Shown piece by piece: positions 6,737 to 18,400 of a DNA stretch of 20,587 bases (position 1 is its first letter; each line of letters begins with the position of its first letter). The DNA comes from a virus. The notes beneath the pieces are model-generated. The model was given only the letters and a program-made list of their open reading frames with translations. It searched no databases and was not told where the DNA came from. The translations under genes were made by a program, and so were the position numbers. Location of the stretch: positions 1 to 20,587 of IMG/VR virus record IMGVR_UViG_3300035564_000048. The stretch is one strand, 5' to 3'.

Positions 6737-7708
6737 ATGCCCACTTACGATTTTACCGATACTCGCCCGCTTTGCATAGACCTCTTCTGCGGCCTCGGGG
6801 GATGGAGCGAGGGATTCATTGCGGAAGGGTGGCGCGTCGTCGGCTTCGACAACGAACGGCACCAGTACGGCGACCAGCGCTATCCCGGACAGCTTGTCCT
6901 TCAGGACGTGCTCACCATACACGGGTCGCAATTCCGTAACGCCGATTGCATCGTGGCCTCACCTCCCTGTCAGAAATACTCCTGGATGGCGATGCCTTGG
7001 AGCCTTGCGAAACGTGAGGTTAGATGGCAGGAATGGGAGCGCGACTCGCCATTTGGTGACCGGCTGGAACCGCTGAACGCGCTGTTTAATGCGTGCTTCC
7101 GTATTCAGCGGGAGGCGTCAGAAGCGGCTGGCCGTCACATTCCGATGGTGGTAGAGAACGTCAAAGGGGCGCAGAAGTGGGTAGGGCGGGCAAACTGGCA
7201 CCACGGGAGTTTCTATCTGTGGGGAGATGTGCCAGCAATTATGCCGCATACGTTGAAACTGCGGAAAGTGCCGGGATTCAACTTTCACCAGCATGAGAAC
7301 GGCGGGGCGGGTGGGTCGTTTCAATCGGCGGCGGTCGCCGGCATCAAGGGGTCTGTGGGGATCGCAAGCGGGGACGCGCCAGAGGGCACGGGGAACTCGT
7401 CTTGGTTCTTCGGGGAGCGTGCGGACCCTCGGGACGTTCGCAAGCAGTCTGATGGCTCCTGGCTTCTGGCAGACGGGACGAAAGTGGGCGGCAGCGGCGC
7501 GGCATGGTTTGATGCGGGACCAGCGGCGTTATCTTCCCGCAGTTCCGCTCGCAAGGCAGCAAGCGCCATGATAGCCAAGATACCCGGTGAACTATCGCGC
7601 TACATTGCACGATACTATCGGCCTCAGATCGTACCGGCGATGAATCCAGCGTCCGCGAATGCTGCCCTGATCTCCGGCCGCTTCGAGTCCAGAGAACCGC
7701 GAATATAG
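6737..7708 (+). CDS. DNA (cytosine-5-)-methyltransferase, phage type
   Basis: A 323-residue enzyme that would methylate cytosine at carbon 5 in phage DNA, commonly as protection from host restriction. Motif I is CIDLFCGLGGWSEGF (13-27), with D38 of FDNE as the second SAM contact. Motif IV is ASPPCQKYS (74-82) with catalytic Cys78. Motif VI is VVENV (138-142). The region WVGRANW..GSFYLWGDVPA is typical of a phage branch of the family. A canonical QRR motif VIII and the GNAVP motif X are not apparent; the end has only IPGELSRYIARYY. The target-recognition part is short and Gly/Ser-rich. Specificity unknown. The last 85 bases overlap the opposite-strand gene ending at 7624. A longer form from 6650 or 6671 is possible. 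Confidence 0.8.
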   Translation: MPTYDFTDTRPLCIDLFCGLGGWSEGFIAEGWRVVGFDNERHQYGDQRYPGQLVLQDVLTIHGSQFRNADCIVASPPCQKYSWMAMPWSLAKREVRWQEWERDSPFGDRLEPLNALFNACFRIQREASEAAGRHIPMVVENVKGAQKWVGRANWHHGSFYLWGDVPAIMPHTLKLRKVPGFNFHQHENGGAGGSFQSAAVAGIKGSVGIASGDAPEGTGNSSWFFGERADPRDVRKQSDGSWLLADGTKVGGSGAAWFDAGPAALSSRSSARKAASAMIAKIPGELSRYIARYYRPQIVPAMNPASANAALISGRFESREPRI

Positions 7709-8034
7709 CCGAATCCCGCGAAACCATTCCCCTCGCTGTAGACGAACGGACCAGCCCACTTTCCCGCGGCTCCACGCTGCCGGATGCCGTACTCCACATA
7801 GGCAGCGTAATCCTCCGAATAGGTGACGTATCCGGTAACCGCCTGGCCCTTCCACTCAACGGTCTGTGAGCCGGAAGACTTCAGTTTTCCGCTGCGCACG
7901 GGTACCTGAATCTGCGACTCCTGGAATACGGCATCGGTCGCCGCAGTGACAGCCGTGATGAGCTTCGGCACGATCATGGCTTCAAAGCGACTCCAATCAC
8001 CAGCGCGAAAGTCGGACGTGGCGCGAATGTTCAT
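7624..8034 (-). CDS. HK97 gp10-like tail completion/morphogenesis protein
   Basis: A 136-residue minus-strand protein. VPVRSGKLKSSGS (44-56), then GYVTYSEDYAAYVEYGIRQRGA (68-89) and a GF.YIRGSLDS...EIR end, are the pattern of the HK97 gp10 family, which joins the tail to the head-tail connector. ATG 8034 overlaps the stop of an upstream 53-aa gene (ATGA). A longer in-frame reading from 8199 would add a hydrophobic stretch that is better explained as the shifted frame of that 53-aa gene. It is odd that this structural gene faces opposite to all other morphogenesis genes and lies before the capsid rather than between head-closure and tail-terminator genes. It overlaps the methyltransferase 3' end by 85 bases. 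Confidence 0.75.
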   Translation of the reverse strand: MNIRATSDFRAGDWSRFEAMIVPKLITAVTAATDAVFQESQIQVPVRSGKLKSSGSQTVEWKGQAVTGYVTYSEDYAAYVEYGIRQRGAAGKWAGPFVYSEGNGFAGFGYIRGSLDSKRPEIRAAFADAGFIAGTI

Positions 8035-8201: not shown

Positions 8202-8384
8202 CTACACCCGAGGAAACTCGGTGCGGCTGGTGACAGGGAACCGGATGGTGTGCTGAGCGTCGGCAACAAGGGGAACTGATGGCTGTTTCGGCAATAGCGG
8301 GGCTGGAGGTTTAGGAAATCCCTCGGAAGGAGCGCCGCCTTCAGAGCACGCGCTCCCCGCGATTCCGAGGTTCGGTTCAACCAT
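8202..8384 (-). CDS. Possible proline-rich small protein
   Basis: A 60-residue minus-strand ORF, rich in proline in the middle (FPKPPAPLLPKQPSVPL), ending 9 bases before the 53-aa membrane gene and so possibly first in a three-gene minus operon. No clear Shine-Dalgarno before ATG 8384; a weak CACAAT lies 6 bases upstream of it. The frame stays open upstream to a stop at 8475-8477 and reads EPPQIGACAPPAQ without a standard start codon, so the true beginning is uncertain. No family recognised. Proline-rich short phage proteins include outer-membrane spanin subunits, but no signal sequence is evident here. It may not be a real gene. Confidence 0.35.
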   Translation of the reverse strand: MVEPNLGIAGSACSEGGAPSEGFPKPPAPLLPKQPSVPLVADAQHTIRFPVTSRTEFPRV

Positions 8385-8452: not shown

Positions 8453-8481
8453 TTGACCCGAAACGAGAATTGACCTACAAT
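8453..8481 (+). promoter_or_regulatory. Sigma-70-type promoter, predicted leaderless
   Basis: TTGACC at 8453-8458, a spacer of exactly 17 bases, and TACAAT at 8476-8481. The ATG of the next gene is at 8488, 6 bases after the -10 box, so transcription would be expected to start at or next to the A of the ATG. No Shine-Dalgarno is present. A second TTGACC occurs at 8470-8475. No transcription data were available. Confidence 0.6.
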
Positions 8482-8483
8482 TC
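8467..8483. repeat. Operator-like inverted repeat over the -10 box
   Basis: GAATTG, 5 bases, then CAATTC: a perfect 6-base inverted repeat that covers the TACAAT -10 element. This placement is typical of a repressor-binding site. No candidate repressor gene is visible in the window. Confidence 0.45.
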
Positions 8484-8487
8484 GGCC

Positions 8488-8772
8488 ATGACGATTCAGA
8501 CGATTGCCGACATCACGCCTAACGGGGCGGCCGTTCCGCTGAGCACTAATCCCGATCTATTCGCCACGTGGATCACGCTGACGGCTACCGGCTCGTCGAT
8601 CCGCTACGGCGATGTGAATGTGGGCGCGGCTCGCGGCGCGTTGCTTCAGACCGGCGTTCCGTACACCATCCCAGCGCCCGGCACGCACGATCAGGCGAGA
8701 TTGTACCTAAAGTCGGTGCTCGTCTATGGCGCGGGCGGTTCCGACAAGGTGAGCATTACCTACGGCAACTGA
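8488..8772 (+). CDS. Small conserved-type phage structural protein
   Basis: A 94-residue protein, probably all beta. It has the pattern SSIRYGDVNVGAARGALLQ, a central Pro/Gly turn region, LYLKSVLVYG, and the end DKVSITYGN. I have the impression that short phage proteins ending in a G.DKVSI.YGN-like strand occur in capsid regions, but I cannot name the family. It may be a virion accessory or decoration protein. It starts immediately after a near-consensus promoter without a Shine-Dalgarno, unlike neighbouring genes. A longer in-frame start at 8470 would lie inside the promoter and is unlikely. Its 3' end overlaps the converging zinc-finger gene by 13 bases. Confidence 0.65.
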   Translation: MTIQTIADITPNGAAVPLSTNPDLFATWITLTATGSSIRYGDVNVGAARGALLQTGVPYTIPAPGTHDQARLYLKSVLVYGAGGSDKVSITYGN

Positions 8773-9107
8773 GGCTTGGTCTTGTCCGCGTCTTCCGGCA
8801 GGACTTCCGGCCCCGGCAGTTGCTCCAACATGAACGCCACCTCAGCACCGTTGAAAATCCGATTCCCCCATGCTTTGAAGTGCGCGGCGGCCCCGTCGCG
8901 AAAGCCCTTGATTCCCCGGATGATTCCCCGGCGCTCATCGCGCCAAGACTGCCCGTCGCGATACTCTCGCTGGTAGGCGTTCCGGCACTCTTTACACCAG
9001 GGGTTCGCGTCCGATTCACCCCCGGAGCGCGGGCGCTCTTGACACTTCGTGCAGAGCTTCGCCGGCTGATCGGTAGTCTTTTTCTCGCTCACTACGGCTG
9101 TTGCCAT
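8760..9107 (-). CDS. Zinc-finger protein, HNH/endonuclease VII-like metal site
   Basis: A 115-residue minus-strand protein. Residues 19-41 hold a four-cysteine site, C19-x2-C22 and C38-x2-C41, followed by RNAYQREYR. This CxxC...CKxCrxxYxReYr layout is seen at the start of phage zinc-binding proteins and recombination endonuclease VII/HNH-type nucleases. The conserved catalytic His/Asn part of such nucleases is not evident in the remainder (RRGIIRGIKGFRDGAAAHFKAWG), so nuclease activity is not claimed; it could be a DNA- or RNA-binding regulator. It is a single divergent gene, an accessory insertion between plus-strand head genes. Confidence 0.6.
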   Translation of the reverse strand: MATAVVSEKKTTDQPAKLCTKCQERPRSGGESDANPWCKECRNAYQREYRDGQSWRDERRGIIRGIKGFRDGAAAHFKAWGNRIFNGAEVAFMLEQLPGPEVLPEDADKTKPQLP

Positions 9108-9113
9108 GTGAAC

Positions 9114-9119
9114 ATTTTA
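9114..9119 (-). promoter_or_regulatory. Candidate -10 box for the minus-strand zinc-finger gene
   Basis: On the minus strand TAAAAT (9119 to 9114) is followed by 6 bases (GTTCAC) and the ATG at 9107. TG directly precedes the hexamer. No convincing -35 is present and no Shine-Dalgarno is seen. The spacing predicts a leaderless transcript, as at 8488. Confidence 0.35.
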
Positions 9120-9140: not shown

Positions 9141-9170
9141 TTGTTGAGATACACGTAACCCGCCTACTAT
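9141..9170 (+). promoter_or_regulatory. Candidate leaderless promoter for the scaffold/protease gene
   Basis: TACTAT at 9165-9170 is followed by 6 bases (CAGGCC) and GTG 9177. Possible -35 elements are TTGTTG (9141-9146, spacer 18) or TTGAGA (9144-9149, spacer 15); both are imperfect. No Shine-Dalgarno precedes the GTG and an in-frame TAA at 9156-9158 rules out an earlier start. Confidence 0.4.
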
Positions 9171-9176
9171 CAGGCC

Positions 9177-10850
9177 GTGAGCACATTCCTACGTGGCGGA
9201 TTCCTAGCGCTGGCAATCAAGCTGCAGGAGGCCGCAGATTCGGGCGATTCTCTCTCTGCTAACGACATCCGAAGGCGCCTCATGGACGCTATCAACGACG
9301 CGCACCAGGGAACCGGGAACTACGCCTACTACATCGACCACTTCGGAGATGCCGAGTCCGGCGACGTGATTTTCTCGTGCAATGGCGATATGTGCCGATG
9401 CCCGTACGAGATCAGCGACACCACGGGCGCATCGAAGTGCACCATCAACATGGACGCCTGCGAGGATGTCATGCCGCGGACGATCTACGAGCCGGAGGTC
9501 GATGAAGACGACCACATGGCGGCGATGGCCGAGGCGATCAAGGCGAAGCACTACGGTGACAAGACGCCACTCTACGAGCGGTTCGTCAGCAAGAAAGAGC
9601 GTGATTCGGCATCGTCAAAGGACTTCGCGGGAAAAGGGAAATCGTTTCCGATTCTGAAGGCTGCCGACGTTGCGGCGGCGGCGAAAGCGCTAGGGCCCGC
9701 GGGCTCCGGCAACTACTCCACCGACGTCATCAAGCGCAACATTATCCGCATCGCCAAGGCCAAGGGCTTCACTTCTGAATTGCCGAAAGCATGGCAGAAC
9801 GACACATCGGAAACGGCATCCGCGAAAGAGTCCATGCACTTGGTGGAATCGGCGGCCACTTGCGAAAACATCGTGCTTCGCGAAGCCAAGGCCGACTACG
9901 AAATAAAACTCATCGCGCCCGGCAAGGGATCAAGCGCATTCTATCCAGCTGAGGTTTTGCGGCGCGACGGTCCGAACGTGTTCAAGAGTGGCACGCACGT
10001 TTATCTGAACCATCAGACCGCGGCGGAAGAGGCCGCGAGGCCCGAAGGCGACGTCAAGAATCTGGCAGGCGTGCTGACGACCACGGCGCGATACGAAGAG
10101 TCCCACGCGAAAGGCCCGGGCCTCTACGCGAGGATGAAGGTATTCGCAGACCACGCGCAGATGGTCGAAGAGAAAGCGGCGCACGTCGGTATGAGTATCA
10201 GAGCTTCAGGCGTGGCCGAGGCCAGCCGGAAACAGGACGGACTCCCGGTCCTGAAGGAACTGACCAGCGCCGAGAGCGTCGATGTTGTGACGCGGGCCGG
10301 CGCGGGCGGAATGATTTTGACCGAGGCGGCGCGCGGCGCTGTCAATCTGGAAAAGGAGGCATCGCAGATGCCGATGGACGAAAACGAGTTGAAACTCCTG
10401 CGGGAAAGCGTTGCTGCGGTCTCCGCAACCAACGCCGCCTTGCTGGAAAAGGAGTTGCGCCGCGAAGCGATTGCACACGGTGCGGCCACTTACCGGGATC
10501 TCAACATCCCCAACCAGGCCAAAGAATACCTGATAACCAAGGTGCTCGAGCGCGGCCTGCCGAAGAAAGACGGCGCGCTGGACACGGCGAAACTAACCGA
10601 GTCGCTGAACGCCGAGGCGCGGGAATTCGGCGCGGCGATCGGTCTTCAGCAGCGCGTGACTGGCATGGGTGCCAGCGGTGGAACACAGCTCACCGAGGCA
10701 CAGCGCGCGGACTTCGAGAAGCAGCAGAAGGAAACGCAGCAGGCCACGGAGAAGCAGTACACCGAGGCGTGGGCGGATCTCTTCACTTCGGGCAGCCCGG
10801 CTGAAAAGGTCAAACTGGCCGAAGTCGCGATTCGCGGGAGGGCAAACTAA
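9177..10850 (+). CDS. Prohead protease fused to scaffold regions
   Basis: A 557-residue protein that would chaperone capsid assembly and then cleave head proteins. Residues 1-115 are of unknown type, with a Cys-rich patch (CNGDMCRC near 68-75). Residues about 136-208 resemble the DUF6582-type segment (FVSKKER, FAGKGKSFPIL, IAKAKGF, P.AWQ). Residues about 240-385 are the serine protease: FYPAEVLRRDGP, HVYLNHQTAAEEAARPEGD with probable catalytic H279, GPGLYARMKVFADHA, VGMSIRASG with probable nucleophile S340, and ESVDVVTRAGAGG. Residues 395-557 are helical and charged, as in scaffold tails. The GTG start is the first possible one after an in-frame stop. Ends in TAATG with the next gene. Confidence 0.8.
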   Translation: MSTFLRGGFLALAIKLQEAADSGDSLSANDIRRRLMDAINDAHQGTGNYAYYIDHFGDAESGDVIFSCNGDMCRCPYEISDTTGASKCTINMDACEDVMPRTIYEPEVDEDDHMAAMAEAIKAKHYGDKTPLYERFVSKKERDSASSKDFAGKGKSFPILKAADVAAAAKALGPAGSGNYSTDVIKRNIIRIAKAKGFTSELPKAWQNDTSETASAKESMHLVESAATCENIVLREAKADYEIKLIAPGKGSSAFYPAEVLRRDGPNVFKSGTHVYLNHQTAAEEAARPEGDVKNLAGVLTTTARYEESHAKGPGLYARMKVFADHAQMVEEKAAHVGMSIRASGVAEASRKQDGLPVLKELTSAESVDVVTRAGAGGMILTEAARGAVNLEKEASQMPMDENELKLLRESVAAVSATNAALLEKELRREAIAHGAATYRDLNIPNQAKEYLITKVLERGLPKKDGALDTAKLTESLNAEAREFGAAIGLQQRVTGMGASGGTQLTEAQRADFEKQQKETQQATEKQYTEAWADLFTSGSPAEKVKLAEVAIRGRAN

Positions 10851-15490: not shown

Positions 15491-18400
15491 TGGCTGACAA
15501 CGAGTCTTTGCCTGGAATCAGTATTCCGATCGTAGCGGATTACTCCGCGCTCCAATCCCAGTTTGCCGAAGCGCAGAGCGCGGCACAGCAGGCGGGAACC
15601 AACATTGCCGGCGCGTTCACGGGCGCGGCTGCCGGCGTGACCACATTCGAGCAGGCCGTCGAGCAGGCGGTTGCCAGTGGGAAGACTCTATCCGAGGCCA
15701 TTGCAGGAGCATCAACGTATCTCTCGCAGGCGGGCTCGGCGGCGCAGCAATCGGCCGGCGAAGTCTCGGCGCTCAGCAACACGATGGATCCGCTCTCGGC
15801 CGGCGCGAAGTCCGCGGCGGAATCCACGGCTGGATTGGCGGCGTCCGAAGTGGCCGCCGGGCAGGCGGCGACCGAATCGGCGCACGAAACGGCCAGTCTG
15901 CGAGAGCAGTTTCTTGCGCTCGGGGAAGCTCTGGCAGTCACGGCGGCGCTGAAAGAATTCGGAGAAAGGGCACTCGACGTTGCGGCGGAACAGCAAAACC
16001 TGATTATCTCCCTGACCGCGTTGACCGGCAGCGCCGAGGCCGCGCAAGTCCAACTGGAGGAAATCAACAAGTTTGCATTCTCTAACGCGCTCGGAATCGA
16101 CGCCGTAGAGACCGCAACTCAGAAGCTAATCGCGTTCGGATTCAACGCCGAACAAGCGGGGAAGCTACTGCAGGCGGCGGCAGACTCGGCGGCGGCGACT
16201 GGAAACAGTTTCGATGCAGTCGCAACCAAGATCTCGAATATCGCACTGAGCGGAAACGCGGGAGCGCGGCAACTGGTTGCGCTCGGCATCTCGGCGGATG
16301 ACCTGGCGAAGAAAATGGGCGTTGCCTCCGACGAGGTGACGAAGGCATTCAAGGCCCTGGATCAATCGCAGCGCGTCGAGGTGCTGACGGCGGCGCTCGA
16401 CAAGTTCGGCGGCGTGGCTGGCTCCGTGGCGCAAGGGATGAGTGGCCAGTGGCAGAACCTCGAGAACGATCTGCATAACGTATTCGAGCAGATTGGCGGG
16501 GAACTTCTGCCCGTCGTCACCAGCCTGATTGGGCTCCTGCGAGACGATGTAATTCCGTTCGTCAAGGGCGCATCCGAGGCGTTTGCGGAGCTGCCGGCAC
16601 CCGTCAAGGAATTCGCCATCGGCGCGGGGCTCGTGGTTGCGGCTCTGGCACCGCTGGCCGTCGGTCTCGCCGGCCTCTCGCTGGCAATGACCGGCCTGCA
16701 AACCATCGTGCCGATTGTGACCGGCCTAATGGAATCGTTCGGCCTGGCTTCGGTCACCACGGCGGCAGAGGAAGAGATCGCGGCGGCGGCGACTACCAAA
16801 CTAGGCGGCGCGGCATCCACGGCAGCGGTGGAGTTGGAGGGCGCAGAAGTCGCGGCGGCTGGCTTTGGCGGCGCTCTGAGCCTCACCCTTGCCGTCGGAG
16901 TGGCGGCGGCAGCGATATCCCTGATCGATCTCAAGGCGCGGCTGGATGGCGCTCATGCCGCGCTGGACGGCATTTCCCAAAGCAACTGGAATGATTGGCT
17001 GAAGCGGGCGACGGACGGGCTCAAGACTGCCAGTATCTCGACGGCAGACCTCGAGGCGGCAGCGGCGAAACTGAAGACCGGCCTGGAACTCGGGGCGATC
17101 TCAGCCACGCAGTACGCGGCGGCGATGGACGCTATCACGGCAGCCGAGAAGCGCGTCGAAGCTGAGAACCTTGCGGACTCGGTGGCGAAGTGGACCTCCG
17201 GCCTCACTGTCCTGAAGGACACCAGCACGAAGGCAGCAGACGGTCTCTCTCTGCTGAAGCAGGCGATGGATGACGCCGCGGCGGCACAGGCGCGCGTGGC
17301 CGTCGAGTACCAGGCGGGCGCGAAAACTGCGGGCGATCTGATCTCAGCGAATAACGCACTGGCCGCGGCGCAGAAGTCCTACAATGACGCGCTGGCAGCC
17401 ACGAAGCCAAACGAATACCTGGACGGATTGAAGCGGCTTGCCAGTCAGGAGGAAATCAACGCGGCGTCTGAGGATGTTCTGGCGAGCAAAATGACGCTGT
17501 TGCAACGGGCGGCGCTACTCGCCGGACAGCAACTGTTTGACTTGAACGAACAGGCTAAACTCCTCAATCTACAAGTCGATGCCGGAACCGCTAAGGAATC
17601 CGACTATATCGCGAAACTTGGGGAAGTAGCGTCCGCTGCAACTAATTATAAGACGGCGGCAGAAGCACTCAACGCCGAGAAGTTGAAGGGCGAACAGGCG
17701 ACCGCGAATCTCACCGATGCCGAACGGAACTTTGGGATCGAGATGCTTGTCGCCAACAAGACCGTTGACGACCAGGGGAACGCGATCAAAGAGACGACGC
17801 GCGCCGTCGGTGACTTCGGCGTGGAGCTTATTACCACCACGATCCCGACCGAGCAGAATATGGCGGGCGTGATCGACTTCACGAACACGGCCATCAATCG
17901 GCAGATCGAAGCATTTCGCGCGGCCGATACCGAGGTCGGTTCGCTTTCCGCAGATATCAAATCCCTGACGGAAGATTTTCTTGGTCTCGGAGATGCGCAA
18001 AGCAACAGCGCGTCGATGAAACTCAAGGCCCCGGCTGGCTACGTGATCCAGTCGCATTATGTCGGTGAAAGTCTGGTGATCGACTACGCACCGACGCCGG
18101 CCACGCAGTTGAAGCTATCCGAGGATGCGGCGCGGCAGCAGGCAGACCAGCAGAGCAACCCGCGCGGCGCCACAGACCCGGTATCGCTGGCAAAGCAGAC
18201 TTTGGCTGAGGCACAGGCGATACTTCCGCTCATCCAGCAGGCATTCCAGGCGGGGAACGCGGGCATCAAGGCGTCCGACGTCCAGAGCGCTCAGCAGGCG
18301 GTTGCGTCGGCACAGTCGGCACTCGACAAGTTGACGGGCGCGGCGACTACGGCTGTCCAATCTTCGGGCGGCGGATCGGCCACGCGCACGGTCTCTACGA

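Follow-up and report, generated by a model that had tools for sequence, protein, structure and literature searches.

A conserved leaderless-type promoter, predicted from sequence, at a small head-module gene of phages that probably infect Acidobacteria

The cI gene of phage lambda, when transcribed from PRM, gives a leaderless phage mRNA, and its product is a repressor with defined operators. Leaderless SigA promoters have also been predicted in the cluster O mycobacteriophages—PL1, PR2 and PL2 of Corndog (PMC4351075). In bacteria, leaderless genes carry a TA-like signal, a -10 region adjacent to the open reading frame, and they have been reported in Acidobacteria and Deinococcus-Thermus (PMC3160421; PMC12340547); they occur in all three of the acidobacterial genomes surveyed, at a mean of 13.3% (Zheng et al., PMC3160421). 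Predicted leaderless phage promoters are already known, then, from Corndog; what is new here is a well-conserved case in another group. Our literature search found no promoter work on phages that probably infect Acidobacteria.

The locus lies in a 20,587-nt stretch of viral DNA, referred to below as the window, from a soil phage whose host is probably an acidobacterium, an assignment for which one 3.9-kb MAG contig is the only basis. On the plus strand, the -35 hexamer TTGACC (8453–8458, five of six matching the consensus) is separated by 17 nt from the -10 hexamer TACAAT (8476–8481); six nucleotides, TCGGCC, come next, and then the ATG (8488–8490) of a gene for 94 aa (8488–8772, plus strand), which we call simply the small gene. 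No Shine-Dalgarno sequence precedes this ATG in the window. The original prediction described exactly this arrangement, and every element of it is present. A promoter of such quality is not unusual by itself—the window holds six if start codons are ignored, versus 4.6 expected from shuffles—but a promoter with a start codon beside it is: the one site of at least 10/12 that ends 5–9 nt before an ATG or GTG compares with 0.055 expected, and with 0.005 expected if an ATG must follow at 6–7 nt (200 dinucleotide shuffles in each case). An in-frame TTG at 8470, upstream of the ATG, could in principle serve as the translation start; the alignment of the relatives' small proteins begins at the ATG at 8488, not at this TTG. 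Small-gene starts frequently read ATGCAA/ATGCAG or ATGAC, in the window (8488–8496) and in its relatives.

As judged from sequence, the small gene very probably possesses a conserved, leaderless-type promoter for the primary sigma factor, and constitutes an independent transcription unit in the head module. The promoter would be of the sigma-70/SigA type and, because its -10 box lies only some 6 nt before the ATG, transcription would begin at the start codon or within 1–2 nt of it, which would make the mRNA leaderless. The unit would stand between two minus-strand genes, and promoters of the same kind would drive the HNH gene on the minus strand and, beyond it, the protease run. Where transcription starts, leaderless translation, the timing of expression and the absence of a repressor are matters that we infer.

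Relatives were gathered through the portal protein, an alignment of which led to 72 viral contigs, to the 3.9-kb contig (from an Acidobacteriia MAG) and to a more distant contig from a Chloroflexi MAG. Used as a lone query sequence, the small protein retrieved no relatives from IMG/VR or from annotated phages, and the family surfaced only once this collection existed: iterated profile searches of the relatives placed it at 45 loci, and the HNH gene at 52. Small-protein identity among relatives is mostly 20–60%, and the gene is patchily present between them.

In these relatives we counted TANNNT boxes 4–9 nt before the start, using non-redundant upstream regions and taking expectations from neighbouring bins. 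The small gene has such a box in 24 of 35 (about 1.7 expected), at exactly 6 nt in 16 of them; the HNH gene has one in 30 of 42 (3.4 expected), and the protease gene in 23 of 41, mostly at 8–9 nt (2.7 expected). In-operon head genes—decoration, MCP, MuF and gene 5375—have none in 115 starts. The box of the small gene is tied to genomic position. Among non-redundant copies at the head-module island, 24 of 29 have a TANNNT that ends 5–9 nt before the start, most commonly 6, and where a minus-strand gp10-like gene lies upstream all 14 of 14 do; the six copies outside the island, where some members lie beyond the MCP, towards the tail side, have none. Start choice may account for some of the five island copies (of 29) that lack the box.

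When aligned, the promoters match at TA..AT and at the ATG, and the remaining sequence diverges; the spacing thus appears, in the sequences compared, to have been conserved while protein and flanking DNA changed. Most relatives have a weak -35 element or none: for HNH and gp10-like genes the matches do not surpass shuffled sequence, and for the small gene they do so by a small margin only. SD-like words are found in 5 of 35 small-gene family members. The portal genes of many relatives likewise start right after a -10 box, and in all relatives together TANNNT offsets of 6–9 occur at 131 among 1066 first starts, versus about 26 expected. That the small gene is leaderless, as had been predicted, gains support from a layout that has persisted among proteins mostly 20–60% identical; that it is a separate expression unit is supported by the same conservation and by its position between two minus-strand genes.

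The gene order is gp10-like (minus), small gene (plus), HNH (minus), protease (plus), another gene, and then the major capsid protein. The minus-strand gene at 7624–8034 we label HK97 gp10-like, tentatively and not from a database match; its homologues lie on the plus strand in other relatives, and it has a -10 box at 4–9 nt in 8 of 18 cases when on the minus strand, versus 2 of 25 when on the plus. It is on the minus strand in the window and in about two dozen relatives (L013–L015, L017–L023, L027, L028, L030 and L063 included); the remaining relatives have it on the plus. Convergent with the small gene is an HNH/endonuclease VII-like gene (8760–9107, minus strand) that has a leaderless-type -10 of its own, TAAAAT (9114–9119, minus strand), 6 nt before its ATG at 9107. 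The head maturation protease gene (9177–10850, plus strand; phrog_15531), which heads the downstream plus-strand run, begins with a GTG at 9177, 6 nt after the -10 box TACTAT (9165–9170, plus strand). In three adjoining units of the window, then, exactly 6 nt separate the -10 box from the start; the original prediction recognized the layout at the small gene and missed it at the two next.

Upstream of the small-gene promoter is a hairpin (8321–8370, plus strand; -26 kcal/mol, z -2.3), and at the matching site the near relatives L020, L021, L022, L028 and L063 have strong hairpins with a U-run; a bulged shape is common to the window and L022. Hairpins were scored by a folding scan; a perfect-stem terminator scan misses long, bulged ones. 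Enrichment across the family is not clear (8 of 35 small-gene upstreams vs 18 of 150 random stretches in the folding scan), and Rfam gave no match at gathering thresholds. By eye, L028 has an apparent tRNA-like 3' end directly upstream of the small-gene promoter (about 15570–15630).

The small protein itself is predicted to be all-beta and not a repressor. Its structural model is confident (mean pLDDT 89), and the fold matches are weak—jelly-roll, cupin-like and uncharacterised phage proteins, the best with a Z of 7.7, below the level of trust—and family searches in Pfam, PHROGs and PDB sequences gave no match. It may play an accessory role in the virion. Five relatives (L031, L038, L042, L050 and L065) have a signal-peptide-like N-terminus (LFLAGLSAQ, for example) that the window copy lacks.

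An inverted repeat, GAATTG-ACCTA-CAATTC, does lie over the -10 box (8467–8483), as the original prediction had it, and was thought to make the gene repressible. Alone, the palindrome is not special and lies within chance: the window has 62 inverted repeats with six-base arms and spacers of 0–12 versus 92.5 expected, and the chance of finding a six-base-arm repeat over any given 40 bp of it is about 11%. What speaks for a true operator, through which a repressor of the phage would shut off the small gene, is that the 1.18 Mb of DNA from relatives contains just two copies of the exact 12-base palindrome, each of them over a leaderless-type -10—the second, GAATTG-N5-CAATTC again, over that of the HNH gene in L054 (4449–4465)—and that arm-6 repeats cover the -10 in 8 of 30 HNH promoters. 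Against this, the window copy alone among 24 promoter-bearing small genes has an arm-6 palindrome and the other 23 lack it, so that close relatives that retain the gene have kept the promoter and not the palindrome; no family has more dyad symmetry than its local shuffles (z*sqrt n 0.55, 0.44, -0.98 and -1.55); the arms overlap the -10 itself on the right and a weakly conserved, A/T-rich stretch on the left; and no repressor gene was identified in the window. The palindrome is single-copy in the 20.6-kb contig, which may be incomplete. We regard an operator here as unlikely, and the promoter as probably not regulated through the palindrome.

Expression from a prophage was also envisaged as possible. 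The window is only a fragment of its own genome. Of 26 related records, four carry a tyrosine integrase, and serine recombinase was absent from all those searched, so prophage expression has little support; nor, given a small all-beta protein, does a role like that of cI from PRM. A moron gene expressed in lysogeny would agree with the patchy presence between relatives, with the gene's own promoter and, in some cases, with a terminator-like hairpin upstream; yet the scarcity of integrases, the finding of the portal in just one of 299 host-class genomes (the MAG with the 3.9-kb contig; no other matched), the family members located past the MCP, towards the tail side, and a predicted beta protein that better resembles a virion accessory make this a doubtful interpretation. 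Least probable of all, to the point of being hard to credit, is ordinary, leadered expression from a promoter farther upstream, with TACAAT close to the ATG by accident. Chance promoter-like sites do occur, as the shuffles attest, but the gene upstream is on the minus strand, a terminator-like hairpin stands just before the small gene in five near relatives, the -10 spacing is kept while its surroundings diverge, and a Shine-Dalgarno is lacking.

A self-contained leaderless promoter remains our preferred reading, and the layout suits an acidobacterial host, which uses it for its own genes: in the putative host MAG (448 kb), TANNNT offsets of 5–9 occur at 33 of 312 crude starts versus 10.8 expected. 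We offer, tentatively, the broader idea that such promoters serve as self-contained starts for strand-alternating head-module genes in this phage group. Because a -10 abutting the ATG would suffice for each gene, with neither a leader nor a ribosome site required, genes could be inserted or inverted, as the gp10-like gene on either strand suggests. The outcome, for phages that probably infect Acidobacteria, is a set of predicted leaderless promoters that is both conserved and open to test, and that hints at the way in which single genes on alternating strands come to be expressed inside a late structural block. Gene callers would do well to check -10 boxes at such starts, and not Shine-Dalgarno sites alone.

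With lambda cI, the precedent that the original prediction named, the small gene shares a leaderless phage mRNA, predicted in this case; it differs in lying in the head module, in its predicted product, a small beta protein, and in having no supported operator. The resemblance to Corndog is closer: there, too, +1 is predicted to coincide with the start codon's first base, one leaderless pair is divergent, and PL2 drives a leftward gene located in the structural operon. The phage group and host phylum are different, however; the predictions there cover five close genomes whereas dozens of divergent relatives are followed here, and the 17-bp palindrome of cluster O lies mostly away from promoters. 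The bacterial TA-like signal belongs to host genes, and the phage site in the window has, in addition, a good -35. Common to the two are a TANNNT whose first T stands about 12 bp before the start and, as in the leaderless genes of D. radiodurans, a weak need for a -35.
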